This document shows positions 10,551-64,000 of a stretch of DNA of 64,000 nt, one piece after another. This DNA comes from Loxodes magnus (taxonomy: Eukaryota; Ciliophora; Karyorelictea; Loxodida; Loxodidae). Within the stretch, counting starts at the first letter, position 1; the number at the start of each line of letters is the position of its first letter. A model generated the notes under the pieces. The model worked only from the letters and a program-made list of their open reading frames with translations, had not been told where the DNA came from and did not search any database. The stretch is taken from positions 1 through 64,000 of the forward strand of contig CAMPDV010001444.1 in assembly GCA_946699065.1 (NCBI GenBank). Reading direction: 5' to 3'. The translations under genes were made by a program, and so were the position numbers.

Positions 10551-10566
10551 AAACTCAATCTTAAGA

Positions 10567-23934: not shown

Positions 23935-23979
23935 TACTTGCATATTTTTTATATAATAATCTCCGTTCATGTAACTTCA

Positions 23980-25130: not shown

Positions 25131-25607
25131 ATTCAGTAAAGAATCTTTTCTTTGCTTATGAAGAACAAAAATTATGGATAGCCGTGTGATAATCCTCAAG
25201 ATATGTTCTATTAGTTGGTAAAACCTTCCATTTAGCCTTTTTAAAGTAAATCTAATACTTTAAGTTTATCAATTTTCGCTTAATTATAGCCAAATTAAAT
25301 TACTACTTACATCAATTTTGGGAGTTTCTGTAGGTTCTAAAATAAATTTTGATAAAAATAAGTTCTAAAGCTCCATATTAAGGAAATTACTCATTAATCT
25401 ATTTTACTCAGTTTTTATTTTTGATATTTTCACTACAGAATCTCACAATTTGTTAGCTAGGACATTTAGTTAAATGGTTCCAATCCTTCTCCTATTCTAC
25501 TTCTCCAAACATAATAAAACTTTAAGAATCTTAATTTTTAGGTTAAAAGAGCTGAGTAATAAAAAAGTAAACCACGTTGTTATTAAATATTATATAAAAT
25601 GGATTTC

Positions 25608-26013
25608 GGCCTCGTTAGAAAAACTAGTAGGTAATCTGGTACAGTGTATATTGCTTTGCGAGTAATCTCGCACTAGATACCACCACGGAGAAGGGCGGAT
25701 AAGCTCTGAAGAGACAAAACTAATTTACTCCGAGGGTTCTCGCTAGCTTTACGAGAGTTTAACTGATGGTCCTAATAATGATTCAATTACTAATTCTTAT
25801 TTGGATCTTATTCAAAAAGAATGAAGCATTCTGTTCAAGATTTAAGAAGAAATTTAAATAAAAAGATTCCCCATTTGGAGAGTTGATGTGTTTCATTGGA
25901 CGAATAGAATGAAATCATCTTTTGAGAACACTTTTTTTAATATTAAATATTAATACTGAAAGAGCTTCGTGCCAACGAGGAGCTTCGCACTCTATAATCA
26001 TATTTATTTATTT
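25608..26013 (-). repeat. Foldback element 1, right inverted arm
   Basis: Inverted copy of 23531-23934. Element C is inserted 26 bases beyond its outer end. Confidence 0.85.
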
Positions 26014-26053
26014 AACTTAATGCTTTTTCAAATCTTTTATTTCATTTTCTTAA

Positions 26054-29954: not shown

Positions 29955-32900
29955 TCATTTTTCTTATTCAGAAAACTTTAATGATTTTAGGATAATCCCT
30001 CTATCAAATCTTTTATTATAACTCTTTTATACAGTCGCTTTGCTATTTATCTTAGCCAGTTATGTTAATTCTTAACTTTCTTTTGGGTAAAAACTGGATT
30101 TTATTCCTGATCCTCTAGCTGTGACTTGAAATATATCTTATTACTTAATTTTGTCTAGTTCTAGCTTTCAGTGTACGCAATATCTACCTATTAAGATATA
30201 GAAATTTACCTGTGTAGTGTTCTGATTTTCAGATGGTTAAAATTTTTAATTCTTATCCTTCATTAGTAAGAAGCGAGAGCTACTTGCTTAGACTTGAAAT
30301 GACTCATCGCTACTAAAATCTTTCTGCTGCTAGCAATAATTTGGATCTTAAGGAATTTAAATTTTGCACTCTTCAATCCCTTAGGCTTAGTTAGGCTTTA
30401 TTTCTAATACATTTATAGCCCATTGTTCTTATACCTCTTGCTTCTTTTTCCCTTTTTTCCTTATATACTTTATCAGTTCTTTTATCATGGAAAAGAAACA
30501 GAAAACTAAGCAAATAAATAAGATACTCTCTTACACTAGCACTATCACTTTTCCAATTATCTTAGCTTTATCAGAATTAATTAGTTCTAGACTTCTTGCT
30601 TTTGTGCTACTGTCTAAGCTAAAGAAATAGAAGTCAAACGAGTACAAAATGGACATTCATATCTCTTAGAATATGTGAGCTTTGTTAACCATGCGTGACT
30701 CGAAAGGCTAGCAAGTAAGTATGAAAATAAGCTAAAACTGAGTCTAAACTAAGCATAGAGTCATTTAGAGTTAAGGAATATCTCTAAGCCCTATCAAAAA
30801 GAAAGCTAGCATAAGCCTTCGGGTCAAAAATAGAGGGTAGAACAACAATGCCAATTTTTTAGTTTTAAGCTCATCAAATATCGTAAAATACTTCATCTGA
30901 TATTGCTAAAGTAGTACTTTCTGTTCCTAGTCCTCAGGGTTTGTTTTATTTTTTATCTTTATGAACTTAATTACTACATAAAACAAATAAAAAATGACTG
31001 ATATTTGCAAAACCTAAAATAAAAGCTTACTAAGCATAAACATGCTGCTATTGAATTTACAGCAGCTCATGAGCTTTTTAGGCTAAAATTTTGTAGTTGA
31101 TAAATCGAGGTGTAACCTATCTTTAAGCTAAATACGAAATAAAGAGTCAGAACCAATCTATAATGCAAGTACTTGAGTCTAAAATTACTTAACTTTTAGC
31201 TTTAAGTGTACTTAAAAACGAGCTGTAATAGTAAGTCAATTGCTATAACTGCAAGTATTACTATAAAGTTTGCTGAGACGTTTGGTAAGAAAATATTGTC
31301 TCCTCATTTACTTATTTCAAATAAATCGTTTTAGAATGGATTCAAATCAACTTCTAGATTTAATTGCTTAGATAGCTCATTCAGCAAATTCTGATTCTAT
31401 TGATAGTAGTATGCTAACAATATTTCAGGTTTTTCAACAGTTATTAGAATATTTGAATGAAACAAATCGTCTGCTAGCATGAGCGTAAATATATTTCCGG
31501 TTGATCCACTCGAAGGAAATATAAGACTAACTCCAGTTGCTGAACCAACTCCCACTACCATTGCAGCATCCTATATCTGTAAAGTTTTCTTAATAGCTTC
31601 TTTTTATGAAGTTGTTATATTAAACATGTCAATACTTCATTTCGTATCCTCATCCTTCTATTGATTAGATTAACTTTCTTCCTATTCTTCTTATGTCTTA
31701 CTTGAATCACAACTGTTATTTTTAGTTAAGATATATGAAAAAAAGCAGGAGAGGCATAAACTTCCATCTTCAGAACATTCTGAGCAATAATCTATTGTTT
31801 AACTGCAAGGATTGCAAACACCTGACTTTGATTGATCCTATTCTGTTGAAGGACATTTTTTGAAACAGTTTCCATTAGATAACTTTAGGTCTTAGCATTG
31901 TGTACAATCAGTTGAATTCGAACATTAAATACAATACGGATGAATTACTGAACATGACTTGCACTAATTGTCACTATCTAGGAAAAATCCACTTTAGCAC
32001 TCAAAGCATTATTTACTTTGCTTTTTACATTTATTACAGCTTCATAGTTACTAACTACAAGGTAAACAAACTTAGTTATTATCGTAATCTTGCTCTGTAT
32101 CTTCACACTAAGTTTAGCATGTATTATTAGAAAGCATCAGAGTTCTACATTCTAGACAAATGCCTTTCTATTTACATTTGGTACAGTCTTAGTGTATTTC
32201 ACTGCATAAAAAGCACGCGTTTTCTCCTAGTCCATAATTAGTAAAGCAAGCATCACATATAAGCTTATCATTACTTTCATGACATTTCTAACATTTGTCG
32301 ATAATTAGATTGCAAGGCTGACAAACATTATCTTTGTCTGTGTCTTAGTCAAACTATGAGCATTAGTCTTTGCATTCGTTTTTAGTTAGCTTTTTATTGC
32401 AAAACTAGCAGATATTTTAAGCATCGTAATAATAATTCTTAAAGCACTCATCTACACATACATTACTTTAAAGTTTTAAAGGTGAAAGGCAGCTGAAGCA
32501 TACTGATGCATTTAAAGAACAATTATTACAATTCTAAATATTCTGAGAGCATATCTGACATTAATGTTTACTATTAATGTAAAACCCTTTTTCACAATTT
32601 AAGCATTCGATTCCATCTTCGCTACACTAGAGGCAACTATTAAGTTAGTAATTACAACTTTTACAAACTCCATCATTATTACTATCCTATTCTGTAACTG
32701 GACAATTAGGAAAACATTTGTTTTAGGAAAGTTTAAAAGGACTGCGACATTAAGAGCACGTATTTTTGTCGTAGCAATTTATACAATTAATATCAATTGA
32801 ACTACAAGGATAACACAACCCATCTTACTCGAGCACATTATTTTAACTACAGACTAAGCACTTGAGTCCATCTTCAGTACATTCGATGCAATTACTAAGT

Positions 32901-34915
32901 ACAGCACTACATAATTTGCATTTTCTATCTCCGTCTTTGTCTTACTCTGTAGTAGGACAGCTATTTGTGCATTAATTTTATGAAAGTTTAAAAGGACTGT
33001 TGCATTCTGTACACGTGCTTTTATCAGAGCAGCTTATACAGTTAATATCAATTGAACTACAAGGATAGCACAACTTGTCTGCTTCAAGTACGCTGTTTAT
33101 GCTACAGATTGAGCACTTGAGTCCATCCTCAGTACATTCGATGCAATTACTAAGTACAGCACTACAAAGCTTGCATTTTCTGTCTCTGTCTTTGTCTTAC
33201 TCTGTAATAGGACAGCTATTTATGCATTTGTTTTATGAAAGTTTAAAAGGACTGTTGCATTCTGTACACGTGCTTTTATCAGAGCAGCTTATACAGTTAA
33301 TATCAATTGAACTGCAAGGATAACACAACCCATCTTACTCGAGCACGTTGTTTTAGTTACAGACTGAGCACTTGAGTCCATCTTCGGTGCATTCGATGCA
33401 ATTACTAAGTACAGCACTACAAAGCTTGCATTTTCTGTCTCTGTCTTTGTCTTACTCTGTTATAGGACAGTTACTAGAACATTTGCTTATAGATTCTTCT
33501 AATTTTCAAGGATTAAAGCAGACATTACAAACAGATCCTTTGTTTAAGCAAGTTTAGCAATTAGTGTCTGAACATTAATGACATTGGAAATCCGTTCCTA
33601 CATAGTATCCGTCGATACATTTTGTACATTACAAACCATCCAATGTACACTCTAAGCAATTCGTTAAGACTAATGAGCATGCCTTACATATTCGAACTCC
33701 ATTTTTATCTTATTAAGTAGAAGGGCATGTATCTTAGCATTGGCCAGAGTAAAGATATTTAGTTGAACATTTAGTGCAAGTAAATTTATCAGAACAAGCT
33801 ACACAATCATTAAGATAAGATGAACATAGGTAACATGTGTTGTCTTAAATGTAATATCCTGTATCGCATTAGTTACATACTGTTCCAGTTAAATTACAAT
33901 CAAGACAGTTAGGAAGGGCTTAATTACATAATTCACATTTATGGTCTCCGTTCTTATCTTATTGACTTGAACTACAATCAGTTTAGCAAGTTCCATCAAG
34001 CCTAAGATAATAAGGTGATTAGCATGATAAACAAGTTGAACCATCAGAGCAAGTTTAGCATTTATTCATGGTTTATTGGCACTATTAACATGTAAAGGGA
34101 TTAGAATTTATACTTCAAGAATCAGAGTTACACTTACAAGTATAGAAGGGTGTATCTAAATATTAATTTGCTCTACAAGTTCAGCAAGAATTAGGTCCAG
34201 TACTCGAACATGTTAAGCATTTAGGATCACAATTATTAGTACAGGAATCTGTTAAAGGAGAAGTACAATAACCCTAAGAGCAACTTAGAACACAAGGACT
34301 TTTTTAAGCAAGATCGCTAAACTCTTAATTAGTAAATCATTTATTGTTTCCTCAAAATCTTAAATCAACCATTTATCCGTGAAAGGGATATCCTGTTCAT
34401 TTGTCCCCGTTTCCAATTTTCATGACAGATGAAGAATTTAATTAAATTCAGCCTGACTATTTACTCGCAGTTGTACAAGTAAAAGTGGTCTATTCATAAT
34501 ATTGTATACTATTGCATCGGGATAATTTTGGTTAATTAGTCATTTGAATAAGATGGAAGTATCAAATATTGCATCCAAAATAATGATTATCTTCCTCAAA
34601 CCAAGTTAATGAGCCTGGTAAATCCCAAGAAATTCTATTAGCTGATGTATCTTATCTTGCTCAAAAAACCATTTTGATACTTCCTGTCTGAAATTCTATA
34701 ACACTATTATATTAACTATCACATCTAGTTTACTGTAATCAACCAGTTAAAGCTCACGAATTCTATGAATTTACACTGGGGTCATAGGAAAACTATGCAA
34801 AAGTAACAGTTTTGGCAGTACCAGTGAACTATTAAGCAGTAATAGAATCAATGAGTTAGTAATATTAGGATTTTACTTTTAAGAGACATACTAAGATAAT
34901 TAGAGTCACTTACAT
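29955..34915 (-). CDS. Furin-like cysteine-rich multi-pass membrane protein
   Basis: From ATG 34915 to tandem TGAs at 29957-29952 the coding length minus one 17-nt intron (31014-31030) is exactly 1648 codons. Residues 1-17 are a signal peptide (MQVTLIILVCLLKVKSQ). Residues ~20-205 resemble a LamG/concanavalin-like domain (IKMVFWARQ, ISWDLPGSLTW, FHGQMVDLRFWGNNKW). Residues ~210-1065 are growth-factor-receptor/furin-type repeats with CxxC pairs, including 85-residue tandem units. Residues ~1225-1475 hold about seven to nine hydrophobic segments, such as FIVILAVIAIDLLLQLVF and YPLFLTRRLMLAFFLIGL, followed by a Gln-rich cytosolic tail. This layout is common among ciliate surface proteins. A receptor or surface-coat role is inference. 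Many Gln are TAA/TAG and several Trp are TGA. Confidence 0.9.
31014..31030 (-). other. 17-nt intron in the cysteine-rich membrane gene
   Basis: Without removal of these bases the frame breaks between the CLCL and VLQISVIFYLFY transmembrane segments. Removing gtaagcttttattttag joins them and brings the whole gene to an exact multiple of three. The ends (GTAAG...TTTTAG) are a canonical minimal spliceosomal intron. Confidence 0.85.
32806..33480 (-). repeat. 255-bp in-frame tandem repeat (85 aa)
   Basis: The landmark caagga recurs at 32805, 33060 and 33315, exactly 255 bases apart, and the intervening sequences are nearly identical. The third unit is partial and fades near 33480. Each unit encodes one cysteine-rich module with CYPCSSIDINCISC, CTECNSPFKLS, NSCPITEQDKDRDRKC and NCIECTEDGLKC. 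Recent unit duplication is indicated by the low divergence. Confidence 0.9.
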
Positions 34916-36181: not shown

Positions 36182-36817
36182 ATGAGATATCTTGTTTTTG
36201 TCTTAATTCTTCTTTCCTTTATATTTTAAGATCCAATTTCATTTACTAAGCAAGAATGGCGCAATTAAGTAAGTCTTGAATTGCTTAGATTAATATGATT
36301 TTGGTGGATGAAAAAAAAAGATTTGCAGTGTAATAGTAATTTGGGCTAAAGATACGAAAATAATGTTCTTGGCTATTTTGATAGTACTGAAGTATCATCT
36401 AAATAACTATAAGCATTATGCATATAACTGGATACTCAAAGACAGTTAGAATGCTTTCCTCTAAGTAAGAATTTAATTTTCTAATCTTTTATTAGAGGTA
36501 AAGATTGACATTTGAATAAGTAAATTTATTTAAGCACTAAGCTGATATTGTCAAACATAAATCTAGAAGAGTAGAAATCTCTTAGGACTATATAAATAAA
36601 ATGCCTACTATTAAAGCCTTTAGTCTAGTAGTGTGATAACGCGAACAATTAAGGAATATAAAAAATATACCTAAAGGAGCTAAAATTAAAGCTTGTTGTC
36701 CTATTATAAATGATAGTTAATATTCATATAGTTAGAATTTAAAACTCATAGTAATAAGCATATTTCTCTGTTTTTTAGTATAAGAAGAAAGATAAAAAAA
36801 AGATAGTTATTACTTGA
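36182..36817 (+). CDS. Putative secreted protein cut by the duplication boundary
   Basis: ATG 36182 opens a typical signal peptide, MRYLVFVLILLSFIFQ, followed by a readable frame (CNSNLGQRYENNVLGYFDST, ALCIQLDTQRQLECFPL, KPLVQQCDNANNQ) through 36700. The large duplicated segment begins at 36703, so the last part of the frame, to a TGA at 36815, is repeat sequence and probably foreign to the gene. A GTAAGT...CTTAG stretch of 20 bases at 36270-36289 could be an intron but does not improve the frame. No family is recognised. Confidence 0.35.
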
Positions 36818-39800
36818 AAATTCTTAAGATTAAACAAAACTAAGTAACTAGTGTTGCTTTAATAACAGAGATAGTTTTTAAAATGAAAAGAAGTAGAAAT
36901 TTTTGTAGACTAAGAGAGGATAAATTAAATTTAAATAAAGCAAAGACATTTAAATTAACAACCCTATTTAGATATAACATGCTGTTAATTTAATTTTTTT
37001 AAAGTTATGGGAGTAATATAAGTCCTCATAAAAAACCCATCAAAGGAGATGAAATCCAATATTATATATACTTCAGAACTTTGATAAATTACTCTAGAGC
37101 TTACACATAAGCTTTTGCTAAAGTTAGTGACATTCAGAATAAATTTGTAGGTTTGAAATAAAAGCTAAATTAGTTTAGATTATCATGGCCTTAAATCAAT
37201 TCCTTATTTTTATTTCATAGTAGAGATAGAATAAGAAAGGTAGTAAAATTATAATATGCTTAGAACTGTAGAAAATTAAAGATATATAAGATAAAAGTAA
37301 CTTATCTTATAATTTATAGCATAATAAACAAAACTAAGTCTAATTTATTAAAAATACGAAGGAGCTAGAAAAATAGATTGTCATTCTTGATAAAAAATTC
37401 TCATGACTGCTTTACAAAAGATTTACTTTTTAACTTAAGTTATAGATTTAGAATGAACTCTTAGCTTTTCTTCTTCACTTTTAAAATTGATTTATATTCT
37501 TTATTAATTCAACCTTTATTGCTAAATTCTAAAAATTAAGATTTAAATTTACAACTTGACTGATTAAAAAAATCCAATTTCTAAATTTCTTGAATCTAGA
37601 TTTGAAATATAATCTTAAACATTTCTTTAGCCTTGATAAGCTATTTCTATCATTCGTTTTATCAATTTTATATTTTTCAAAGTCACACCTTAAGGAATTT
37701 ATCCCAATATTTTGTTATATCAACAGAAATTTACTCTTAAGTTGTCTGAGCAAACTTATTTTAACTATGTCATTCTTATCTTTGTATGTAAGCTTTTTCA
37801 TTTTTTAATTTTTCATTCAGTTTGTATTTGAATACAGAAATCAGATTAAGAACTATTATAACATTGCTATATAAGTAAATCTAGCTAGCTAATTGAAATA
37901 AGCCTTCTATGTTTACATCTTATTTTATCTCAATTATTTCTTTAGCAAACTTTTACTTCTTGTCAAAACACAGTTCCATTATTTTCGATATACCAACTAA
38001 GAAAAGATTAAAAGATTAAAAGTTAAAGATAAGATAACAACTTCTAACTTAGTAATAACAATCAATCAGTCATCATTAATTCCCTAAAATAGTTCAATAT
38101 TTGAATAGAATTTATGCTAAATAACGTTTTTTCGTTGTTTTTAGAGCTAGATTTATAGATTTTTTTTATTTCGCAAAATAGTAGCGAACCAAATTAGTTT
38201 CCATTGTAAGCAATAAATGGAAATTTGAGTGAAAGAGACTCTTATAATTTTAATAAGTTGGATAAAGAAGAAAAGCAATATTAGCAGTTAAAGTAGTTGT
38301 CTATAGAAGAAAAGAGGAGAGCTAGTCTAAAAAAGTTTGGTCTATAAATTTTTTCAATCAAGTCTAACAATTTATTTCAGATAAGCAAGCGAATATAAGT
38401 CTAAAATAATGGATATAGATATAACCGAAAGTTAAATATAAAAATAACTCAAAATTTAAAATATGAAGCATTTACTCAAATGTAGGTTAAAAAATTTCAG
38501 TAACTCTGGAGTTCTAATGATTATAGATATTTGTGACTACTAAGTGAAACATAATAAAATATACAAAGAAGCTTAAAAAAGAGAAAAATATAAGAGCAAA
38601 ACTAGTAGATAAGATAGTTAGTTTTAAAAATAAAGGCCTTATAGTTATGAAAGATAGTTATAACTTACTTTAAATACATTTAGCTCTAAAATAAGAAGAA
38701 TTTTAATAAAAAAGGAACCTAAGAAATAACAGATCTTTCTCTATTAACACCTAAAATATAAGAATGTAAACCTAATTTAATTGAATAATCATAATAATAT
38801 AAAGGAAAATAATCTCCCAAATCTTATGCGTAACGAGGGAATTTGAGAAAATTGTCTACAATAAGAATTAAAATAGCAAAGTTGGAAGCTCGAATAGATA
38901 TAAGAGAAAATAGGCAAAGCAGTAAACCCGTAATTTCCTCTATAAAGGAAGCAATCAATAGCATATTATCATAATGGAATATAAGATGAATGAGAATTAA
39001 ATTAGCTTAATTAAATCTCTTAAATACTACATTTTAGTTTTGCTAGTTCAGTGTCGAATAAAGTTTTAAAAAGATAAGTATTACAATAAGAAATTATTTA
39101 AAGAATCAATGGATAGCAGGGAAATTTAACAATGGGTATTGAAGCAAATTAATAATAATTAGGTATAATAAAAAAACGCTGTTGTATATATGTCAAAAGC
39201 AGCATTATTATAAGAGATGCTGGTGAAGAAGCCAAATTTAGAAAAAGAATAAAATACCTTTTCTAATTTAACCAACTAAATCAGGTCTATTACATAAGAA
39301 AAATTCTTTAATAGTAAATTTAGCAATTTTAAGAATAAATTATAACGTAACAAGTTTAATCGTAAAATGCAAAGTATAAAGAGGATGGTAGACTAAGAAA
39401 GTCTTAAACGACCTTTTGTTAAAAAGGAGAAATTCTTAAGATATATGGATGCAAATATCAACTTCGAAACTATAAATTTCTTTTAATTTAACTTTTAGAA
39501 GAACCGAAATTAAGGATAACAAGTTTAGTAATTTTTATTTAATTGATAAGAACTAATTTAATCGCTTGAAACTAACATCTAATCTCATCTATTTAAACTT
39601 TCTTAAATTTTCGTTATAATATGATATTAAATTAATCTTATGTCCTATTAGACTTATATCTAGATAAAGACTACCTAGTGAAAATGTCAAACTGTATTAT
39701 AGTGATATTAATCAATTTCCTTTATTTTATTATGATTTTGCTTAATAATTAGCTCTTAAAATCATTAAGCTCATCTTAATCTACAACCTTTAAAATATTT

Positions 39801-42800
39801 GAATTTTTTGAGTTAAAGAGTAAAATAAATTTGTGCTTGGTAAGAAGATTCTAGGAGTAGTTAATTATGAAGAGGATATAGCAGGATAATGGGTTACACA
39901 ATTATGAAGGGATTAAAATCACGATTGCATATTAATAATTAGATGTAGGAAGGAACAACATCTGGTGAAGCATTTTTAAACAATATTTACTAATATATCT
40001 CATTAGATTCTGAGTCATGTAATAAAACGAATCGTAAAGCTAAAAATTAAAAAAATCCATAATAACCCAAAAATCGAATGATGAAAATAAATCATATAAA
40101 TCAACTTAAATTAATAAATATCCAGTTTTAGCAGATTTAAGATATGAGAAGATAGTTAAAATGAAGGAAACTAATGAGAATAATTGTAAAGGATAAATAT
40201 AATAAGTCAAATAGAAGATAAAAAACAAATTAAAAGAAGAAAACTTAAGTTACTAAGCATTTAGTCTTCAGACGTTGCTATACCAAAAAAGAAAATTCTT
40301 TCAAAAATTTAAATTGATGGTATACCAAAAATGATTTAAACTTATTTGAGTATACTTACTTTTAAAAGAAGCAAAAAGATAAAATAAAGCAATATTAAGG
40401 ATTTTCTTTATTTTAGATTTCTAGAAAAATTTAAGAAAAATTCAGATCTCTCTGAAAATAAGGGATATTCTATAAACATGCTTCTCAATTAAAGTTATAG
40501 GTAATAGAACTTTTGATTTATATATATAATAAGTAATTAACTAAGTCATTTATAATAAAGCTTCTGATATAAATATTTGCTTTAAAGCAAAAATATAAAA
40601 TCATACTATGTTTATTTACATCAAAGCTTGGAATTTGAAATTGGGATAAATAAATAATTAAGTTTAAAAGCTTGTATATATCTAATTAAGAAATAAAAAC
40701 AGAAGATAAAATATAAGAAATTAGAAATCTTAATTAATTAGACCATTAATAAATTATGATTAAAACTATAATGATCCAATGGAGATTGAGTAATCAAACT
40801 TAAATATAATCAAATATAAAAAATTAGATAATCAATCAGATAATAAAAAGAGGATTAATTATGTGCTGCCTCTGTAGAAGGCTAGAAAACACAAAATAAA
40901 ATTGTTGGAGATACCAAAATACAGAAAAGCAAAAATAAACAATTTCTTAAAAAGCATTCCTTATTTTTATTGTTTTTCAGAAAGCACTGTTACATTAGTA
41001 AATTATACAATGTTGTTATGCTATTATTTATAAATTTATCTTATATATTTTCTATTTTAGTTTCTTTTCATTTATTTATATAAAACTATTTACTCATTTT
41101 ATTAAATATTAGATTCATCATTAATATTTTAACTATAAAATTTTTTAATATAGCTCTCCGAAAGAATAAAGAGAATGCCTTAGTTCTAACAAAATATATA
41201 TAGTAATTTAAAATTAAGTTTATCATTTATTCATCAAACTTTAATTAATAAAACTATTATGACATCATATAAAAATATGGCTCCAAAGAAATAAGTATCT
41301 TCTGCGAAAACATTTTACAATACATATAACTAAAGTAATTATTTTATATGCTATAATTGGAAGAATAGAAACTAAAAAAAGAAGTTTAAGATCTAAAATA
41401 AATAATTTAATTTCTTATGCTTACTATCAATAAATTGATCAACAAACTGAACCTTAGATAAGAAATTAACTAGCTTACCCAAAAATCATGCTCATACTTT
41501 TTGACATAATCTTGACTTTAAATTTTATTCTAAAGAAATAATTTCTTTAAATCAGTTTCCAAATATTTATATTCCTTTACTCTTTCTATTGCCATTTCAT
41601 TTATATATATTATTTGTCAACTTTGTATTTTCTTTCCATTTCATAGCATTCACTACGTCTTATCTGCTCATATTATATTATTAAGATAACCGTTGTAATA
41701 TTTCAATCATCTCTTGCAATTGATTTGGACTTATAATCATTTCAATCTCATCTACATATACCAATGCTCCCATATATCTTTCCTCTGTATATTATTCTAA
41801 TTTCATGTTTATGGTTATTCTTACTTTGTTTTATCTTAGTTAGTTGACAAGTTTATTTATTATAATATTGAATAATCTTGGAGAGCAGGTGCTACCTTAT
41901 TTAGCTCATTTCCCCGTTTAAAACTGTTCTGATATTAAACCATTTATTTTTATCTTTGCTTCTTCTCTGTACAAATCAGTTATGAGCTTGATTATTTGCT
42001 CAAGTTTTTCAATTTCATTTAGTATCTTTCATATGTCTGCTTTTATTACTGAGTCAAATGCTTTTTTTAAATCAATAAATATTACTCCTTTTTCTTGATT
42101 ATTTTTCTTAAGTCATTCTTGTGCAGTTCTTAGATTGAAGATTTGCTATAAGCATGATTTGCCTTGCTTGAAGCCATATTATAATTCATCGTCACATTTG
42201 CTCAAATATGAGTTTATTTATCCAAATAATCAGATATCTAAATTTTTACTAAATGAATTAAAAGTGAAATCGGCTTATAATTCATAGAGTTTTGCATTCT
42301 ACCTTTTTTATGAAGTAGTATAATAAATGATCCTTTAATATTGCTTGGCATAGCTCCAAATTGTATTATTTTTACGTTAATATTGCGATTAGGTTAACAA
42401 TTTATCTCCTCAAGTTCTTATTGTACTTATTTATTTTCTATCAGGTCCTGCAGCTTTCATTAGGAGAGCTTTTTTATACAGCACACTAAATATTCGTTTT
42501 AGACCTATATTGTTTGTGTGTTCTTGTATGAATCTAATAATCATTTGCTGCCACTTTTATAGATCTCCTCTCAACTTTCTTTAAAATTTTGCATATCCTT
42601 TTCGTTTATTAATGTCCATGGTGCATATTTTCTCTACTTTAATCATCTTTGAATTCCTTTTCAAGTTTTGTTTAATTTTCCTTAATTAATTTTATCTAAG
42701 AAAATATTTAATTGATTTTTCCTATCTTTTTTTGATGCAGTTTAAATTTTCTCCTTGCTTCTTTCTCATTTTAATATAATTATCAATTTATTAGCATCCT

Positions 42801-45165
42801 TATCTAATTAGATATTTTACTTATTTCGCCTGCTATTAAAAAAAAATTTTCTGTCAATATATTAGTTTTTTCTCATTTAATCTATTATAAATCCATATAT
42901 CACTTAGGTCGCTTCTTGGATATATTCTTTATTTTCATAGTGTGCTTAGCTATCTAAATTTTCGAATTCGCTAAGACATATTTTCTTGAATCATTCTTTG
43001 AATCTCTCTTGAACCTTTTATTACTTTAATTTTTTTTAAGTTTATCCTTTTAATTTATGGGGTTTTTCGATATTCTTCCTTAATTTTTATCTTTATTTTA
43101 CCTGGCTAATGATCTCCTATTGGTCTCTATTGATAGAATTTTGTGCTGATAATGTTAGGCATGATATATTGCTCCCTTAAGAACTATTCTATTTTCAATT
43201 TTCCTTTCCCTTTCATAGTGATGAAGGTTGAATCTTTTTTTGGATCTTTACAATCTAAAAGATAATCTTTCATCAAGTTAAATAAGTATTAGCCTGCATT
43301 ATTCTGCTCATACGATAAAAATTGGGGAGTATGCGCATTAAAATCCCCTAGTATTAAAATTTATAATCCTTTGCTGCTATTATGCATTATTAGAGACTTT
43401 CATAAAAGGGTATTAGTTAGTCAGAGTCAGATGTTGTAGTGCTATATACGTTTATCAATGCAAGCCGAACATCAAGTGTTAAACCTATTAATCTTCCCCT
43501 AAAATAATCCTGCTCGATTGAGATCTCCTATATCATACTTTGTTTCTGCGGATAATTCCATCTTTTAAATAAAATGCTACTCCTTTGCAGTATTTTGTGC
43601 TCAATTTTATTATTGCTCTGAATCAATGTTTATAAGCATTTTGGCAGTTTGATCCGTAAATATTTCTTAAATCGCCATAATTTCTATCTTCTTTTCACAC
43701 ATAAACTTGATTAATTCCTTCTTGCTTGATTTTATTCTTTTGGTATTTGTTGTGCCTATGTTTAATTCTGACTATTTTATTATATTAATATTTTCTTTTA
43801 CTTCCTTTTTTTCTTAATCCTCCTACTCTGCATTTTTAGCTTCCTATTCTTTAATAGCGTGAAAACCAAATCGTTCTAATGTTTATTATTTTTCCTGTAC
43901 TTATGTCTTCATTTTTTTGCTCGATACTATCTTCCTTACCATTATATTTTTTTATCTTTTTTGAGAAGGCGTTATGTTTATGCATACTTCCTGTCACTAC
44001 TTTCTATTTGTTTCAGTTTTTTTGTCATATTTCCTATTTTACTTTCTGTTTTTTTGTGATATTGATAGTTTCGTCTCAGTTTTATTTATTTAAATTTGTA
44101 GCATAAACTTGTTGCTAGAAATAAGACGTGGTAATCTATTTGAAAATTATACTCTTTAGTTTTCTTCGCTTTCTTTTCCTTCGCTATCAGTTTCTCTTTA
44201 TAATAAGGCATTTTATTCCTGATTTCTGAATGTATCAACCTGATTTTTACTTCCTTAACATTTTTAATTGCTTTCTTTATAGTTTTTTTCTTAAGTATTA
44301 ATTTGTTAATATGCACTTTTTGGCTACAGTTCATACATTTTCAAATTGACGGATGATTCAAGTTAGTGGTTATACCTCCTTCGTCTAACTTATTTGATAT
44401 ATTTTCTACATCTTTGATCTCCTTCAATTCTAAATAAGTTCTCATTTTTCCATGGGTTCACGTTGGTCTTTTACAGTTCCGATTTTTGTACATGCTATTT
44501 TTCCGTACTGCTCCGGTGGGTTTCTACCTGGTTAAAGCTTGAATACATGTTAAATGTTCAATGAATCAGGTAGTTCTTAATGTAGTAGAATTCCTCTATA
44601 TTTCTTTGCTCTTTTGACAAACTAAATTTCTACTATTCAATGTTTAATTATTTCCGAATTGTGTGAGTGTTTCCTATTTTTGAATTATATAATATAATTA
44701 TCCCTGTCTGAAGGATTTTAGCACTCTCAATATTTTTCCATATTCTTATTTCAGATATCTGAGAAATGCTTGAACGATTTCATTTTCTTGCATTTCTGCT
44801 GGACTGTGTCTTTGGTTGTAGTATTTTTATTCTAAAAATTTATTGAAATAGGTAACTCCTACTCTTTAGCAACTTTGAGCTGCATATTATCGTTCTCATT
44901 TTCTGGAATTTGCTTATTCTTTTCTTCTTCCATTAAAAGATTTGCATAGAGCTGTTGTCTTGTATGATGTTCTAAATTATCTATGTTTTTGATAGGCTAC
45001 TTAGTTTTTAGATTTATGCCCCTTTTTCTTGTGCATTCCGCCTAGTAGTTTAAATATTTTACAACAGAGACGTTTTTCTTAAAAATAATATCCAAGATCT
45101 GATTAATCTGTAAAGTTCTTTCATGCCTTTGTTAAATTTAACTTGTAGTCTCGATCCGAGATTGG
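36703..45165. repeat. Segmental duplication, copy 2
   Basis: Direct repeat of 1-8460. Differences include small indels (for example two bases lost near 38852) and one conspicuous cluster of twelve substitutions at 41698-41762. The 4.7-kb left part holds no gene that I recognise, as in copy 1. Confidence 0.95.
41472..45165 (-). mobile_element. LINE-A copy 2, inactive
   Basis: Same structure and almost the same sequence as 4768-8460, including both frame changes in the RT. The endonuclease motif GDFNAH lies at about 43331-43348. The RT catalytic motif is altered from YADD to YVDE (41758-41747), replacing the second catalytic Asp and removing expected polymerase activity independently of the frameshifts. 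Confidence 0.85.
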
Positions 45166-45326
45166 TTGCATATGGATTGTGAGATTGTTACTTTATATAA
45201 TATCCTAGCATAATTTAATGTATGTAAATAAAGTAATAATGTAGTTTTAGATATAATTGACTGTATTTTTGATGGTAACTGTTATAAATTACCTTTATAG
45301 CTTTTGTAGTCTAAATAATAATAAAA

Positions 45327-46723
45327 ATGTAAGCGTTACCAAAATGCTTAATCTGCTTAGAAGATTACAACTTAACTAATGCTCTTCCAACTGTCTTACC
45401 TTGTGGACATATTTACTGTGGTTTGTGTTTGAATACTCAGTACTGATTATAAGGCATAATGTAATGTCCTATTTGTTAAAAAGGATTCCATTTTAGATTT
45501 GATGATTTACCTTAAGAAAGTGATTTAATAAGAGTGATATTTTAAAACTAATAATACATATAAAAGATTTAAGATGCTAGATAGAAATTAAAAGAGATAA
45601 GGAGGTAAATTATGGAAAAATCTAAAACCATTACAACCAAATAATCAAACATTAGTAATACTCTCATAATACCACTAACTAATATCATCATCAATCATTA
45701 ACCAACATTTATCTACCAAAAATAAACACTCAAATATTATCTAATTCTACTAATCACTAAAACCAACTATACTCTAATATAACTCATAACCACCTACAAT
45801 ACTAAACTCTAAATTAACTTACAATCTAATAAGATAAAAACTATAATACAATACTAAGTAACCAAATAAGATTTAGACTAATTAACATAAACTAAGCTAC
45901 CACTTTATATAATCTAACTATATTCACTTTTTTGATTCAGATACTTAAAAATTAAGTTTATTTAATATTTAAACAGAGTAATTACGATAAGTCTAAGTTT
46001 AAATTATAATTCCGAAAGCTCGTAAAAGTATAGAATATGAAAATAAGTTATATTTAATTGGAGGATTTAACAGAAATTAAAATAAATGAATAAAAGAAAC
46101 TTGATAATTCGATTATGAAGGTAATAGTATAAAACTTTGTGATCTAAATGATGGAAGAAGTTACTTTGGAATAGCAACTGCTTAAAAATAACTTTACGTG
46201 GTTGGAGGATTTACTAATAATAATCAAATGTTATAATCAATAGAAAAGCTAAAGATAGGAAACTAAAGTAAATGATAAAACTGTTCCTAGTTTCCATTTA
46301 GAATAGCAGTCTAAACTTTAGTAGTAGATAAAGATGAATAAAATATTTACTCTTTTGGAGGGTTTAATTAGAAAAAATAAAATTTAAAAGATATATGAAA
46401 GTATAACATGTGGAATGATAGATGGAGTAAGTAAAATTTGAATCTTCCTGAAGCTGTTGCTTTTCCTATAGTTTGTTTAGAGCCTTTTATCATATTTGGA
46501 GGTGTAAAAAATTATTCTAGTGAAGAGTATTCAAGAAGAATATATAAAAGAAGTAAAGAATAATGGCAATAAAGCTAAATTTATAAAGATGTCTATGGTT
46601 TAACGGAGATGAAAATAAGAAATAACTATGGATATGTTTTTTGCTATAGAATAGAGAAGAGTTTCAATAATGAGGATTGATTTAGAAAAATTGAGTTATA
46701 GAAGTATTAGAAATGATAACTGA
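45327..46723 (+). pseudogene. RING finger-kelch fusion, copy 3 (frameshifted)
   Basis: RING and linker match copy 1 almost perfectly, apart from one extra A near 45724, which shifts the kelch half. A second extra T near 46639 shifts the C-terminus. Start to terminal TGA is 1394 bases, not a multiple of three. Kelch motifs LYLIGGF, LYVVGGF, IYSFGG and FIIFGGV remain. Both indels are in or beside homopolymers, so sequencing error cannot be excluded. The kelch half differs from copies 1 and 2 by about 10%. Confidence 0.75.
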
Positions 46724-47265
46724 TAAACATAATAAAAATATCTATATTATTAATATTATTTAAATATTATCTCATATGTAAAGAAGTAGTTTAAAGATCT
46801 ATAATTAGGTAAATATACTACTACTTATTAAAATATTTAAAGCGTCTGAAATAAATAAAGAATAAGATTTTATCTAAACATCTTTAAAAATCTATTATTA
46901 AAATATTATCATTATTCAGATACAAACATATAGCTTATATCAGCCAAAGCATATTCAACACAGTCAAAAAAAACTATCTTTAAATACATTCTTATATTAA
47001 AATTATACAAGTACTACTTAGATTACTCTATTATTTATCTAATCAAATAAAAATTATAATCAAATAATAATTAAGCTATACCTATATCTAAATACTAATT
47101 AAGTCATAACTACTATCATCAAATCAACATCTTCAAATTTAGAATAAATTAATTCCTTTCTCATTTAAGTTAACTAATATATATACTTAAAAATGCCCTT
47201 CTATAGCTAATAATAAAATCAAACCATTACAACTCTTATACTCTCAATAAAAACTCAATCATAAT
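46724..47265. other. G-poor 3' flank of RING-kelch copy 3
   Basis: Third version of the G-depleted downstream spacer. It has neither element A nor B. No gene is recognised. Confidence 0.5.
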
Positions 47266-47269
47266 AATT

Positions 47270-47530
47270 TTTCGAGATTAACATGATAGACCATTAAACT
47301 ATACTCAGTTACATTCAAATAAAGTTTTTAAAAAGGATTTCTAATGGTGAGAAAAACAAGAAAAATAAGATAAAATAATAAAATTAGCAGAAAATAAAAT
47401 ATTTTAATGAGCAATTTTTTGAAGAAAATAAAGAGAATAAAATAGAAAATTTCGTCTAAGAAATAGGAATAATTTATCGATTATAGAAAGACATTTTAAA
47501 CGTTACAACTCAAGCATAGTTGTAGTATTA
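47270..47530 (+). pseudogene. LINE-B copy 3, 5' end only
   Basis: It begins with ttttcgagattaacatgat, as do the other LINE-B copies, and follows the copy at 18768 through the segment with attttaaacgttacaactca near 47490. Similarity then stops, so only the first 260 bases of the element are left. Confidence 0.6.
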
Positions 47531-52760: not shown

Positions 52761-52924
52761 AAAAATAAAAGAATAAGAATAATTAAATAAATAAAAATCT
52801 ATTATGAAAACATTGATTTATTCAAATTAAAATATTCATATTTTTTCTGAAAATATACATTTTTTCAAATAAGCAAAATAAAAATAAAAATCTAAAAATT
52901 AAATTAGAAATTAAATTCAATAAG

Positions 52925-55173
52925 AGTTAAAAGTAAATGATTTTTCAGCTTTATATTAAAAAACTACTCTCTGTAAAAATAAAAAATCACTTTAATTTGC
53001 AATCTAAAAGAAAATTGGCAAACTAAATAAAAAAGCTGCTAATATAAAACATACAATGACTTTCTTCGAATCAATGATTACTTAAAATATGAAAGTTACT
53101 TTCTTAAATATAAATTAATACCCCCTATTAATTTAAAAAATACATTCTGAATAATTAAGTTTACTGACTAAACTTAAATAGTACAAACTGATATAAAAGC
53201 TTACGATCTAAATTTAAAAAATACTATCTAACAATTAAACCTTACAATCTGAAATAAAAAATTACCTAATGTTAATAGTAAACCTCCTAAAATAAACTAA
53301 TACCATCTATGAATAAAAAACAAAACTATCTATAATAGCTTTTTATACAATCTATAAATAATAAAAATATTTTACATTCTATAAATATTTAAAATATTTA
53401 CCCTCTTAATTTTTAAAATCATTTACCCACTAAAATATTACAAAATCTTACCTTCTATACAAATTTTATTTTCTTACTTTCTATAAAAATTTTAAATACC
53501 TTACGATCTAAAAAAGTTTTAATGTTTTACTCCCTATAAATAACTTAAACATATTACATTCTAAATTTTTTTAAATAATTTACCCACTTTATGTATTAAA
53601 TATATTACTTCCTTTAAATAAAAAAAAGCATATTACTCTCTATAAATATTTTAATACCTTACACACTAAAAGAATTTTAAAATCTTTCTCACTATTATTA
53701 TTTGAAGTTTCTTACTTTCTATCATTTTTATCAATTCTTACTTCCTATTAAATTGTAAATATTTTACTCTCTAAAATATTCAAAATTTCTTACTTTCTAT
53801 CAATATTTAAAATAGTTCACCATCTAAAGATATAAGAAAAATTAACCTCCTAAAATTCTTAAATAAACTACTCCCTATAACTATTAAAATCTTGCAGTCT
53901 ATAAATAACGAAATGACCTACCATCTATAAAGATTTAAAAAGCTTTACTTTCTTTAATATATAAAATAGCTTACAAACTATCAGAAATTAATATCTTTTA
54001 CTTTCTGTAATTTTTAAAGATTTTACTCACTGCAAATATTTAAAAAATAACTTGCCATCTAGATGTACCATAACCTCTTACTCTCTATTAATATTTAGAA
54101 TTTATAACGATCTATAAACTTTAAAATAGCTTGCCAACTTTATCCATTGATTTTCATTACTATCTACGAATGTTTAAAATATCTTACATTCTTTAATCTA
54201 TTAAATACATTACCTCCTATAATATTTCGATAGCTTACAAACTTGATATTTTAAAATATCTAACCTTCTGATTTTTTAATTTCTACCCTCTAGAATGTCT
54301 TAACATATCTTACTAACTATAAATTTTAAAAATAACTTACCTTCTTTAAATAGTTAAGACATCTTGCCTTCTTTATATATTTAAATTATTTAACTTTCTA
54401 TAAATATTTATTATTTTACCACCTATAAATAATTAAATATCTTACATTCTTAATATATTTAAAACATCTTACCATCTTGTAAAATTTAAATTAATTACTT
54501 GCTAAAAGATATAAAGCATCATACTATCTATAATATTAAAAACATACTATCTTCAGAAGCTTAGAATTTCTTACGCTCTTTAAATTATTCAAATTATTTA
54601 CAATCTAACGATAATTAATTTTTCTAACATTCTATATATTAAAGATTACCCTCTTTCTTATATTTTACCTCCTATATTTAATTCTTTACTTGCTTTAGAT
54701 TTTATTTCTTACTTTCTTAATTTAATTTTTACCGTCTGCTTTTATTTTCTTACAGACTTTTTTAATGCTTACATTCTTATTTAATTCTTACTTCCTTTTT
54801 GATTTAATTTTTACAATCTATACTTGAAACTTTTACATTCTAAGTTATTATATTTGATACTTTCTATTTTTTGTTTTATTACTCACTTAATTTTAATTTA
54901 TTACTTGCTGCTTTAAAAATCACTTTCTACAAAGTTAATCTTTACTTTTCTTCATTTCATTTTCATCTTCTTAATTTATTAAATACTCTCTTCTATATCA
55001 GATATAGATACATTCTATATATTTTTAAGTTTTACATGCTATGCTTATTTTTATACCACATTATTGTCTTATCTACTTAAAAACTGATTATATTATCTTA
55101 TTACCTTCTATTTTAGTTGTTACCTTCTATAAATAATCATATATCCTCACTTCCTATATTTTTATTTGCTTAC
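52925..55173 (-). repeat. Array of ~80 intron-like units with 3-nt spacers
   Basis: On the minus strand the whole 2.2 kb parses as GTAAG-like start, AT core often with TTTAAA, and TATAG, TTAG, AAG or CAG end, followed almost always by exactly three variable bases and the next GTAA. On the plus strand this appears as AC-NNN-CT repeated about every 26 bases (for example at 53582, 53609 and 53634). Units are 16-20 nt at both ends and about 22-24 nt in the middle. A few exceptions occur near 54930-55080, where spacers are longer. Unit bodies have diverged widely, but the borders and the spacer length have not. The unit borders match the real 17-nt intron of this window. It starts inside the last codon of the RING-UBL frame. 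Confidence 0.85.
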
Positions 55174-55696
55174 AATTCTTCAGTATGAGATTTAGCTAAA
55201 CTTCTTGTTAATCTCAATATTCAATTAAATATTTATGTCTATCTAATTTTTCTTCTTCTTTAAAGAGTTCATAAAAATCTTCATCAATTCCTTCTTGTTT
55301 TTCTATTTTATGCTTCAGTTATTAAACTGTATCTCCTTCCTCTACTAGTAAGCTTATCTACTCGTTATTTTATGTTAAAATATTGATTTTTATTCTTTTC
55401 TCTTTTAGTTATGGCTAATGCTATGAAGATATCTCATTTGCACTCTATTCAAGGTTAATTTATTTCTAATCCTTTTAACCTTCTAGTAATTAGCCTTCTT
55501 AGTTTATCAAATTTAAAGGATCAATTTAGGATATTATTCTGCATTTTTCATTTGGACATTAGTTAGAACCATGTTTAAAGTACTCTTCTAAAGCACAAAC
55601 TTAGCAAATTTAATGTCCACAAGAAAGAGTTAATGGAGGTCTTATTTAAGTGTCAAATTCATTTGAGCATAATCTGCACTAGTTAGTTTAAGACAT
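55174..55696 (-). CDS. RING finger-ubiquitin-like domain protein
   Basis: ATG 55696 opens a 174-codon frame. Residues ~7-50 are a RING-type finger (CRLCSNEF, LTLSCGHQICQVC, QCPNEKC). Residues ~105-174 have a ubiquitin-like fold: RIKINILTQNNEQISLLVEE, GDTVQQLKHKIEKQEGIDED and an ending VQLNLILKN. Such proteins are expected to be E3 ligases in ubiquitin signalling; this is inference. Immediately after the last Asn codon a T is followed by a 20-nt intron-like unit (55154-55173). Splicing it would create TGA as the next codon, read either as stop or as Trp leading into the array. Gln is often TAA/TAG. Confidence 0.8.
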
Positions 55697-55981: not shown

Positions 55982-56400
55982 TAAATAAATAAATAAAAAT
56001 GATTATAGAGCGCGCAGCACTTCATTGGTACGCAGCTCTTTCAATATTAATATTTAATATTAAGAAAAATTTTCTCATGTTTCTTGTTAAAATTTTAGAG
56101 GTTCGATGAGTCATGTCAGCTTCTTCAAATGGGGAATCTTCTTATTAAAAATGTATTCTCAAATCTTGAGTCAAATGCTTCAGTCTTCTTGAATAAGGTC
56201 CAAATAAGAATTATTTATTAAGTCGGTAATTATAAGGCCCATCAGTCAAACTTTCATACTGATAGAGAGAACCCTCGAGGTAAGTTAGGTATGTCTCAAC
56301 GGAGCTTATACACCCTTCCCCGTGGTGGCATCTAGTGCGATATTACTCGCAGGGCAGTATACACTACACCAGATTACCTACTAATTTGTCTGATACGGCC
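55982..56400 (+). repeat. Foldback element 2, left inverted arm
   Basis: Inverted partner of 57981-58376. It starts within an aaataaataaat run and ends at tacggcc. Confidence 0.8.
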
Positions 56401-57294
56401 GACATCTATTTTATATAATAAAAATAATTGAAAGAAATGCTATCGCTGTGGATTAACTTACTTATGATTAATAGTTGTAAAATGTTCAGAAAATTAAAGG
56501 AGTAAAAGGATCAAAAAAAATGAAGAACATCAAGATTATATAGAAACAATGGATAATAATATGAAGAAGTTTATATATCTCTATACATCCTACTGAATAC
56601 TAGATAGAAAATGAGCGAAAACCTATCTTAAACAATAAAGATTTAAAAAGGAAATTCAGAGAGTTTTTAAGCATTTTTTACTGAAATCTTATTAATTTAC
56701 ATTAGACATAAATTATAAAAATAATTATCATTAAATGAGATTATTAAAACCTTATGAAAATAATATTTTATAAAAGTTACTTTATGAGAATAAAAAACGT
56801 GTTTTATGATATATATGAAGATGAGATAAAAAACTAGCTATATGGATCTAGAAGTTTATATCATTTAACAAAAAATTATATAAATAAATAAGAATAGAGA
56901 GGTCGTAGCATCTTAATGGCGTGCAGCTTTTTAATAAAGATTTTTAAAGTAAAAAAATTATTTTCTAAAGTCTTCCACAGCGCTAGCATCCTTTGTGAGT
57001 ATCGTCTTCTATAGAACTTCATCGGAATGCTCCCTAAGAGACTTTAATATCTGGCATCTTTCATAAATAACGTTACATGATGACTCTTTAGTCTTTGCCT
57101 TCTCTCTTGGCTCTACCAAGATTCTTGTTGGGTTCTTCGCCCATGGGTATTTCCTGGTACCAGATCTTTAGTCAAAGTCGTTTGGAAATTGATCTCCCTA
57201 TTTATATAATATATAATATATAATAATAAATAAATAAATAAATTTGATTATAGAGCGCGTAGCACTCTCATTGGTGCGCAGCTCTTTAAAAAAA

Positions 57295-57980: not shown

Positions 57981-58376
57981 AGGTCAGAAGAACTAGTAGG
58001 TAATCTGGTGCAATGTATGCTCATAACGAGTAATCTCGCAATTAACGTCACCGATGAAAAGGTGGACAAGTAATGAAGAGTCAACTCTAACTTTCCCTTG
58101 GGTTCTCGCTAGCAGTATGATTATTTGATTGACGGGCCTACTAATAATTTATTTACTAATTCTTATTTGGATCTTATTTAAGAAACTGGAACATTTGGTT
58201 CAAAATTCAAGAATAATTTTTAATAAGCAGATTCCCCATTCTAAGAGGCTAACACATTCATTAGATGGCTAGAATGACAACTAAAAGTATGAGAACACTT
58301 TTTTAATATTATAGATTAATATTGAAAGAACTGCGCATCAACGAGTGCTAATCAATCTATAATTATATTTATTTAA
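57981..58376 (-). repeat. Foldback element 2, right inverted arm
   Basis: Inverted, diverged copy of 55982-56400; ends in atatttatttaa. Confidence 0.8.
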
Positions 58377-58439
58377 TTATAATGAATTTCCTTTAAAAAA
58401 GCATAAGTTTTAGCCAAATTAAAAATCCAAATAATAAAT

Positions 58440-62759: not shown

Positions 62760-64000
62760 TCATTAGAAAAGCTATTCAACTTTACCTTCTGACCATTTGC
62801 ATTCGTATGTTATTTATTTATCAATTACTTTCCCGAATCCATGTTGCTTATCTCTAAGTCAATCACCTTCGTATATTATTCCTACATTAAAAAAGATACC
62901 ATTTAAAAATTTTTAAGTTCCTTTTCCTTATTTCATATCATCTTCGAAATATCCTTCATAAACTCATTATCTTAAACATGTATATATACCATTTCCATTC
63001 TTTTGCTCATTTCTGAACTCTCCTTGATAAGTATCTCCATTTCCATAGGTTATTATTACTTTTCCTTGAAACTGATCATCTATAATATTACCCTCATAAA
63101 TATCTCCATTCTTACATATTTTTAATGCATATCCTTTTAATTTATTTTACTCCCAATGTCCTTTTATTTTGTTGTTTTCTATATCGATAAGTATTCCTTT
63201 ACCTTATTTTTCTTTCCAAATATTCCATTACCCTTCATATATTGCTTAATCTTCTAGAAAAACAGCAGGTAAATCTATCAAATTTTCTTAAACTAACTAT
63301 TAATTATATATATTTTAGTTAAATTTACCATATTACTTTATTTCTTCTATAAACTACTTAACTTTTTCATGCTACATTTTTTCTTTTAAACTAGGAGAAA
63401 ATTAATTTTATTAATTTTCGATAATCTAAAATTCATTATTTTCATCTAAAGCCATTTTGATTTTCATAAAAGGATTTTGAAATAATAAAAATCTAAGTCC
63501 ATCTAAGGAAGTTCAGTCTACAATATCGGTTTCAGTTTAAAAAAACATATTACTATCGAAATCTTTTTATGTAGGCTTATTACTTTTTTCAAAAAGTCTT
63601 TAAAATTTAACTTTTACTGCTTCTTTATCTCACTTAAGTTTCAAGTATTTCTGCATGAATAATTAATTTTCAAATTGGAATTCTTCTGATAAAAATACGT
63701 TCATTTCTACTAACTGCAACAGATCTTCTATAAAACTTTATAGTTTTTCCTTGTTTGTATAGCCATTAATATTTAAGAAAGTATTTCACATAAGCTCACA
63801 TTTTTCTTCAAAAGTAAAGTTACTACAAAGAATGGCATTTAAAAATAGCTTTTTCATTTCATAATTTCCTTCATTGTTAATAAATTAATCATAAAAGAAA
63901 GCTATTGGACTTTAGCTACTATTATCACTATTCTCATCAGGAAGTTTGACTTTTAAAGAGAAAAAAGAACTAAGTCATTTGCTTTTTATCACAAGACAGC
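62760..64000 (-). CDS. MORN-repeat protein, 5' end beyond the window
   Basis: A continuous minus-strand frame of 413 codons runs from the window edge to TGA 62762-62760. The N-terminal half contains a helical region (NFTFEEKCELMWNTFLNING, then YTNKEKLQSFIEDLLQLVEM) that resembles an EF-hand-like pair. The C-terminal ~190 residues have MORN motifs: AIYEGQWNIWKEKQGKGILI, GHWEQNKLKGYALKICKNGD, IYEGN, GNGDTYQGEFRNEQKNGNGI, YEGYFEDDMKQGKGT and IIYEGDWLRDKQHGFGKV. Several conserved Trp are TGA, which strongly supports that reading. MORN proteins of ciliates are typically cortical or ciliary; the role here is inference. No frameshift was seen. Confidence 0.85.

Follow-up and report, generated by a model that had tools for sequence, protein, structure and literature searches.

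A RING-UBL gene family of Loxodes magnus with predicted chains of three-nucleotide exons between tiny introns

How short can the exons of a protein-coding gene become, and can the shortest follow one another in long chains? The question is raised by a locus on the minus strand of a 64,000-nucleotide stretch of the Loxodes magnus assembly (contig CAMPDV010001444.1, positions 1 to 64,000; hereafter the window). A first-pass annotation, made from the letters alone, had described 52925..55173 as a chain of intron-like units separated by three bases each, and had named frame-preserving splicing of single-codon exons, one large or recursive intron, an introner-like array and a satellite as possible explanations. 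The chain is indeed there on the minus strand, with 85 AG-NNN-G[TC] borders from 55153 to 52970 and a spacing specific to three bases. The array is real and, to judge from evolutionary evidence in the sequences, coding, and it is very probably the middle of a protein-coding gene, composed mostly of 3-nt exons lying between spliceosomal introns of the organism's usual tiny size.

The regularity is peculiar to this part of the window. The motif AG-NNN-GTAA occurs 22 and 27 times in the two kilobases that hold the array, and no other minus-strand kilobase has more than four. When spacers of 0 to 12 nt were compared on both strands, three or more such borders with GTA donors followed one another only at a spacing of 3 nt. 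A three-unit pattern has two matches in the window, both inside the array, against none in 100 shuffles. The longest chain in 218 control loci (~1.73 Mb), which came from virus and prokaryote collections and were chosen for containing the same three-unit pattern, was 18 and consisted of a near-exact short repeat, compared with 50 consecutive borders in the window. Aligned with itself, the array has an identity of 0.99 at the acceptor AG, 0.94 at the first two donor bases, 0.66 in the intron bodies and 0.48 in the triplets (values that count overlapping alignments and set aside 2,616 positions with unlike labels). The triplets are also richer in G than the intron bodies (21% vs 6%) and have been kept by the subfamilies on the upstream side of the core described below, which contradicts the initial impression that the three bases vary freely. 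Avoidance of internal AG in the intron bodies was not seen (20 observed, 22.4 expected), and RNA family and tRNA searches gave no match. Chance and a plain satellite were rejected as sources of the pattern on the basis of the spacer specificity, the shuffles and the adjacency to a gene.

The final model consists of a RING-UBL exon, 84 introns and a probable terminal exon, all on the minus strand. Exon 1 (55174..55696; 523 nt, ending in phase 1) encodes a RING finger and a ubiquitin-like (UBL) domain, recognised by Pfam zf-C3HC4 (22.0 bits, cut-off 21) and ubiquitin (30.1 bits, cut-off 25.4; residues 104-173), and the end of the UBL domain coincides with the end of the exon. The array that follows (53081..55173), as read from the border lists, would hold 84 introns, 79 exons of 3 nt and exons of 27, 6, 24 and 0 nt, with 80 GT donors, four GC donors (all GCAAG) and 84 AG acceptors. 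GT...AG ends are the general signature of spliceosomal introns. The intron lengths are 16-26 nt in 83 of 84 cases (mean 21.1), the remaining intron measuring 50 nt, so that the 16-25 nt given for the unit bodies by the first-pass annotation needs one more base and one exception. All 84 introns fall in phase 1, and the coding content of the array amounts to ~98 amino acids, or ~294 coding nt, interrupted by 84 introns. The spacers had first been described as single codons, but in phase 1 each triplet is split, its first two bases completing one codon and its third opening the following one.

Several parts of the array can be told apart. Nearest to exon 1 lie a 27-nt exon (55057..55083), identified by paralog comparison as the homolog of a 27-nt exon of type B paralogs, its boundary having been shifted from 24 to 27 nt after comparison with locus L234; a 6-nt exon AAGAGA (54987..54992; type B homolog GAGAAA), its boundary picked with the paralog in view; and a 24-nt exon (54946..54969) that reads KDENEMKK in frame and has a type B counterpart of 45 nt, placed by the model and by paralog comparison. 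The upstream block (54629..54907) contains fourteen 3-nt exons that spell MKKYWKFYETREE across exon borders and are conserved in the alignment of six subfamilies. In the middle block (53352..54628) the introns are 19-26 nt long (mean 23.1) and are diverged kin of a core intron whose copies are near-identical elsewhere among the paralogs. This block includes a degenerate double unit (53666..53715), where the donor after a TGA has changed from GT to GA and which was modelled as one 50-nt intron. It lies in the segment 53580-53960, for which all sixteen borders had been reported as AC-NNN-CT on the plus strand; the segment has 14 borders, one of them with a GC donor (53898), and near 53691 the GT is lost. 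Further downstream, two introns of 18 and 17 nt (53249..53283) adjoin without an exon, the AG|GT junction lying at 53266/53265, or form a single 35-nt intron, and both segmentations give the same mRNA. The eight 3-nt exons of the downstream block (53100..53248) read YNLFKWE, and the type B locus L245 spells YATFKWE in the same frame from different introns downstream of its core. Tentatively, the gene ends with an exon (52917..53080) that carries a hydrophobic segment VIVCFILAAFLF and a TGA stop at 52919-52917; its frame is not singled out by the codon score (-11.5, -0.4 and -1.8, the predicted frame last), and a near-identical copy of the gene on contig C1243 is without 31 bp of it. The extent first claimed for the array is thus right in its start at 55173 and too long at the other end, as the array stops at 53081 and 53080-52917 is probably terminal coding exon. 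An earlier segmentation with two 24-nt exons and a 21-nt exon at 53715 was given up.

The window was read with NCBI code 27, in which TGA is the only stop. By eye, TAA and TAG are read as glutamine. Both the UBL domain and a gene with MORN repeats (62763-63941; identified by eye) have TGA where tryptophan is expected, which fits code 27 or 28 and supports the genetic code, and the in-frame TGA inside the UBL part of exon 1 fits the tryptophan of code 27. Published introns of L. magnus have a mean length of 19.3 and a mode of 17 bp, 93% being 25 bp or shorter and those below 16 bp negligible, lengths of 3n are depleted and large introns are unusual (PMC11441545), and the size of the array units (83 of 84 at 16-26 nt) agrees with these values. 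The depletion of 3n lengths, which is a property of the population and no rule for single introns, is not seen in the array, where 28 of 83 lengths are divisible by three and the core intron itself measures 24 nt. AAG acceptors, not known as normal for this organism, make up 23 of 82 in the array. A gene finder placed one doubtful intron among six genes of the window and thus gave no local intron consensus; with introns allowed at a cost, it placed none in the array and read on unspliced to just before a TGA at 54922-54920. According to PMC11441545, the genome annotation masked TRF tandem arrays of 1 kb or more and took its introns from Hisat2 short-read mapping with a 40-nt limit. Repeat masking and mapping limits may hide such arrays, and 3-nt exons would anchor reads poorly.

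Further arrays of this kind, which the first-pass annotation proposed to look for, were found in number, and in the loci read over their upstream end they belong to paralogous RING-UBL genes. A whole-genome DNA search with 601 array bases gave 118 matches, and in the contigs fetched those other than the window and its C1243 copy sit in arrays rich in near-identical 24-nt introns. The genome holds at least 123 protein matches to RING-UBL, the window included, a lower bound in that these are all that were scored among 1,844 candidates. Starting from the gene, the array begins right after the UBL domain in 17 of 17 protein-found loci (13 of A-type, with the window among them, and four others). 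Starting from the array, a RING-UBL exon lies directly upstream in 12 of 12 arrays with a readable upstream end, namely eight B loci to which the array sequence led and four picked up by a gene-blind pattern, the contigs of these four being absent from the RING-UBL protein list. The loci are related, many being recent copies of one another, and hence the two counts are not made of independent cases; the arrays on C3879, C2633, C5090, C321 and C2765 were read over stretches without their upstream end, and the comparison covers the loci read. An intergenic satellite would stand in no constant relation to a gene, and the constant order in both directions contradicts the proposal of a satellite unrelated to genes. 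On C306, a single gene can be followed over two adjoining stretches with 266 and 248 borders (514) for ~14 kb, from RING-UBL to the shared 3' units.

Among the A-type copies, 11 of 13 are truncated in mid-array at the same point, and their comparison carries little signal on constraint; they recur every 15.6-15.9 kb on contigs C1444, C1763 and C3843. Two copies have broken splice sites, a donor being lost in L250 and, as read by eye, an acceptor in L263. Outside this genome, no homologue was found among 674 candidates at E 0.01 in a large protein database. Four loci with alignments running on to query residue 250-254 were fetched as candidate intron-free paralogs and rejected: since all four carry the array, the run-on of the alignment was no intron-free tail. 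A dispersed element of ~430 bp has four copies in the window (23529-23958, 25588-26015, 55986-56421 and 57984-58380), two of which form an inverted pair and one of which lies ~290 bp upstream of the RING-UBL gene.

The first proposal, that frame-preserving 3-nt exons are kept by selection for splicing, is supported by the paralogs, which carry the array right after the RING-UBL exon, and by the upstream block, where, in the phase of exon 1, the peptide written by the 3-nt exons is conserved while the introns diverge. The fourteen 3-nt exons upstream of the core can be paired across six subfamilies (B and B2 being close) and read, in that phase, MKKYWKFYETREE in the window and LKKYWKYSETRDE, LKKYWKYFETRDE, LKKYWQYIETREE, LKKFWRYFEIRDE and LKKYWKYIEMREE in the others. 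Exon identity between the window and the five other subfamilies is 0.76-0.81, compared with 0.32-0.36 for non-homologous exons, a level reached by 0 of 20,000 permutations for each of the five, whereas the introns of the same pairs are hardly more alike (0.60-0.67) than non-homologous introns (0.61-0.65). Among the other five subfamilies, intron homology is still detectable (0.67-0.94). Over 14 of the 15 subfamily pairs (B vs B2 left out), intron length is equal in 74 of 182 comparisons of the upstream block, and differences at exon nucleotides 1, 2 and 3 number 39, 57 and 21, nucleotide 2 being the third codon position in the frame set by exon 1. Over all 15 pairs, which are pairs of six related sequences and thus not independent, the 76 codons that differ in the predicted frame divide into 21 synonymous, 36 conservative and 19 other changes, compared with 8, 13 and 63 of 84 and 22, 27 and 41 of 90 in the two other frames. 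Four subfamilies write the motif's tryptophan as TGA and the other two as TGG, which are synonymous in this code.

Comparison of the window with the type B locus L234 points the same way: the exons agree at 40 of 57 bases, where 22.6 would be expected, and the introns hardly exceed their permuted level (p = 0.043). The paired introns differ in length in 15 of 22 cases and the exons measure 3 nt in both genes in 19 of 22, a count that is partly circular, since the 3-nt pattern served to find the units. In the compared stretch L234 has one 3-nt exon fewer than the window. Type B genes have their first introns and short exons at the same places as the window, several with different intron lengths.

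Set against its C1243 copy, the window gene is unchanged at all 336 splice-site bases (~3 differences expected at the rate of the bodies), with 13 SNPs and two single-base indels in 1,463 bases of intron bodies and one SNP in the 294 bases of the array exons. Between subfamilies B and B2, triplets do not evolve more slowly, their divergence being 9.0% compared with 7.0% in intron bodies and 7.3% in exon 1, and differences at codon positions 1, 2 and 3 number 136, 148 and 106 in the array exons, without a third-position excess, compared with 364, 269 and 561 in exon 1, where there is one. In the same comparison indels are absent from 3-nt exons (0 of 1,824) compared with 1.8% in bodies, and divergence is 2.3% at GT, 4.3% at AG and 7.0% in the body; within B, AG is not slower than the body (1.5% vs 1.7%). 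A codon model applied to the chain favours the predicted frame (3.2, -2.8 and -19.2), but with shuffled order it returns 4.3, -7.4 and -19.2, indicating mostly composition.

At the centre of the array, the other members of the family that were read have a core in which the 24-nt introns are near-identical and the triplets vary strongly. In 22 stretches with 3,557 units, per-site heterozygosity averages 0.60 in the triplets and 0.026 in the introns, and the triplets are of 29 types, five of which account for 3,197 of the 3,557 units. The spacing between consensus core introns is exactly 3 nt in 3,512 of 3,549 cases, and in 1,350 of 1,353 where the locus includes a gene end. In the same stretches, TGA makes up 586 of 3,738, 334 of 3,557 and 0 of 3,557 codons in the three frames, the zero falling in the predicted frame; this is suggestive only, because the units, with their 29 triplet types, are not independent, being copied from one another, and the flanks use TGA for tryptophan as well. 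Codons straddle the exon borders in phase 1, and as a result neighbouring combinations of the five commonest triplets (GGA, ATT, TGA, ATG and AAT) would give 12 amino acids, counted by hand. The two sibling pairs compared differ for the most part by entire units. Of the 120 units of L238 and the 118 of L243, 96 can be matched; blocks of 13 and 18 units have been gained or lost, and three individual triplets are exchanged. L234 and L235 have 77 units in common, of 90 and 80. Genome-wide, an exact 30-base core junction was counted 12,702 + 12,773 times compared with 0 for the reversed control, and a looser three-unit pattern 13,712 + 14,282 times compared with 339 + 317. On C3879 (L228-L231), a core array of ~32 kb has two oppositely oriented parts, reflecting a real inversion or an assembly artefact.

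On the reading that we prefer, a stretch of ~98 residues after the RING-UBL exon would be encoded mostly by 3-nt exons, and the pre-mRNA would be spliced intron by intron. With phase 1 shared by every intron, a unit made of an intron and its triplet could be added, lost or skipped with the reading frame left intact, so that splicing errors that skip a triplet would be buffered, and each amino acid would depend on two neighbouring units. A 3-nt exon is smaller than the footprint of the splice sites on either side of it, therefore neighbouring introns could not be committed at once and their removal would presumably be sequential or alternating. In the core, recombination or slippage between near-identical introns may add, delete or swap triplets in frame, and unequal exchange between such introns would alter the protein in whole triplets. 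From here it is a further step to propose that the introns serve as recombination spacers, with unequal exchange resizing and reordering a hypervariable segment of the RING-UBL protein triplet by triplet and in frame, a diversification by codon shuffling that we put forward tentatively, being almost evenly divided over it. A function of the protein, as well as any advantage of its diversity, is like splicing itself something that we infer.

Other explanations have to be weighed against the splicing of 3-nt exons throughout. The one that departs least from it would have the flanking triplets spliced in and the hypervariable core removed as one large or recursive intron, absent from the protein. 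The conserved triplets of the flanks speak against the earlier suggestion of an array spliced in one piece or recursively, which survives for the core, where triplets are unconserved between paralogs, where near-identical donors and acceptors would ease skipping and for which the window offers one AG|GT junction without an exon. Nevertheless, the spacing is exactly 3 nt in 3,512 of 3,549 core gaps (1,350 of 1,353 where a gene end is included), the predicted frame has 0 TGA compared with 586 and 334 in the others, and large introns are unusual here (PMC11441545), all of which makes this reading unlikely. It is also quite unlikely that the family was once spliced in this manner and is now largely pseudogenic, with the core as a satellite expanded inside dead genes. 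The truncation of 11 of 13 A-type copies, the lost donor of L250 and acceptor of L263, the long arrays with an upstream end outside the stretches read and the unconstrained look of the exons between B and B2 would fit such decay; however, frame and conservative changes are kept across six subfamilies, and between B and B2 splice sites are less diverged (GT 2.3%, AG 4.3%) than bodies (7.0%) and 3-nt exons have no indel compared with 1.8% in bodies.

Repeated insertion of an introner-like element, every 3 nt, into one long coding exon would account for core introns that are near-identical while triplets differ (heterozygosity 0.026 vs 0.60), and to this extent the first-pass mention of introners was to the point. 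The RING-UBL exon nonetheless precedes all 12 array-found loci with a readable upstream end, which thus follow one gene family, no intron-free copy of the segment was present among the loci read (four candidates tested), and the whole-unit differences of the two sibling pairs are explained by tandem duplication, so that we regard serial insertion as improbable. Scarcely credible, finally, is satellite DNA that follows an unspliced RING-UBL gene stopping at TGA 54922-54920. The codon model accepts an unspliced reading up to that TGA and core units do form long homogeneous arrays, but type B genes have introns and short exons at the same places despite different intron lengths, and one conserved peptide is found past the TGA on the upstream side of the core, with another downstream of the core.

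The splicing of 3-nt exons in chains would have partial parallels in other systems. Micro-exon genes (MEGs) of Schistosoma are built largely of very small exons, the skipping of which alters the protein (PMC4015677), and the gene modelled here would likewise line up many such exons, 79 of them 3 nt long and the others 6, 24 and 27 nt. Here, however, the chained exons are exactly 3 nt and the introns 16-26 nt long, and the available passages of PMC4015677 describe no 3-nt chains. Most MEG members have a signal peptide, and the protein predicted in the window starts with a RING domain. The bicycle and megacycle genes of aphids form a fast-evolving family in which tiny internal exons are numerous and nearly all share one phase, the megacycle gene having more than 100 microexons for ~2,000 residues (PMC9168663). 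The internal exons of the window gene are likewise of one phase (84 of 84 introns in phase 1), but one triplet per exon, near-identical core introns and RING-UBL proteins set it apart, and chains of 3-nt exons or near-identical introns are described neither in the available passages of PMC9168663 nor in those on MEGs. Microexons of 1 nt in plant APC11 and VPS55 (PMC8831610) and a 3-bp exon in Drosophila hth (PMC7392893) indicate, in the parts of these papers available, that exons of 1-3 nt can be spliced, although those are isolated examples and here they would stand in chains.

Tiny introns and the karyorelict genetic code are shared with genes of karyorelicts and heterotrichs (PMC11441545 and PMC9505925, in the passages available), from which the density of 84 introns in ~294 coding nt differs. 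Introners, stwintrons and gain by tandem duplication likewise involve the multiplication of introns or their gain by duplication (PMC4457414, PMC8469720 and PMC4974935, as far as available passages go). Unlike introners, which are near-identical in many unrelated genes, the array introns, near-identical within the cores, were not seen in unrelated genes among the loci read, and unlike stwintrons or recursive introns they are not nested, with one zero-length junction among 83 internal exons. By size and ends, the introns thus appear to be of the organism's ordinary spliceosomal type and the predicted protein is a RING-UBL protein; tiny introns, phase-symmetric microexons and tandem repeats are known already, and what we regard as new is the organisation. 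Among the titles and abstract openings covered in the literature, no description was found of a gene with a chain of one-triplet exons. If spliced as predicted, this would be, to our knowledge, the most finely split gene structure known, with long chains of exons smaller than the splice-site footprint. It would test the spliceosome on adjacent introns that are impossible to occupy at once, would be an example from nature of shuffling through introns with a resolution of one codon, and would show how coding sequence may lie in arrays that are masked as tandem repeats.

Other features of the window were noted alongside. A segment of 10.6 kb is duplicated within it (1-10564 and 36703-47264) at 97.4% identity. 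A gene with a RING domain and Kelch-like repeats (named by eye) occurs in three copies (8519-10564, 16727-19007 and 45225-47518), in which several hundred bases near the 5' end are almost identical and the rest differs by ~10%, as after gene conversion. A cysteine-rich gene at 31307-34423 has 1,039 codons without predicted introns and contains a 255-bp internal repeat in about three copies.
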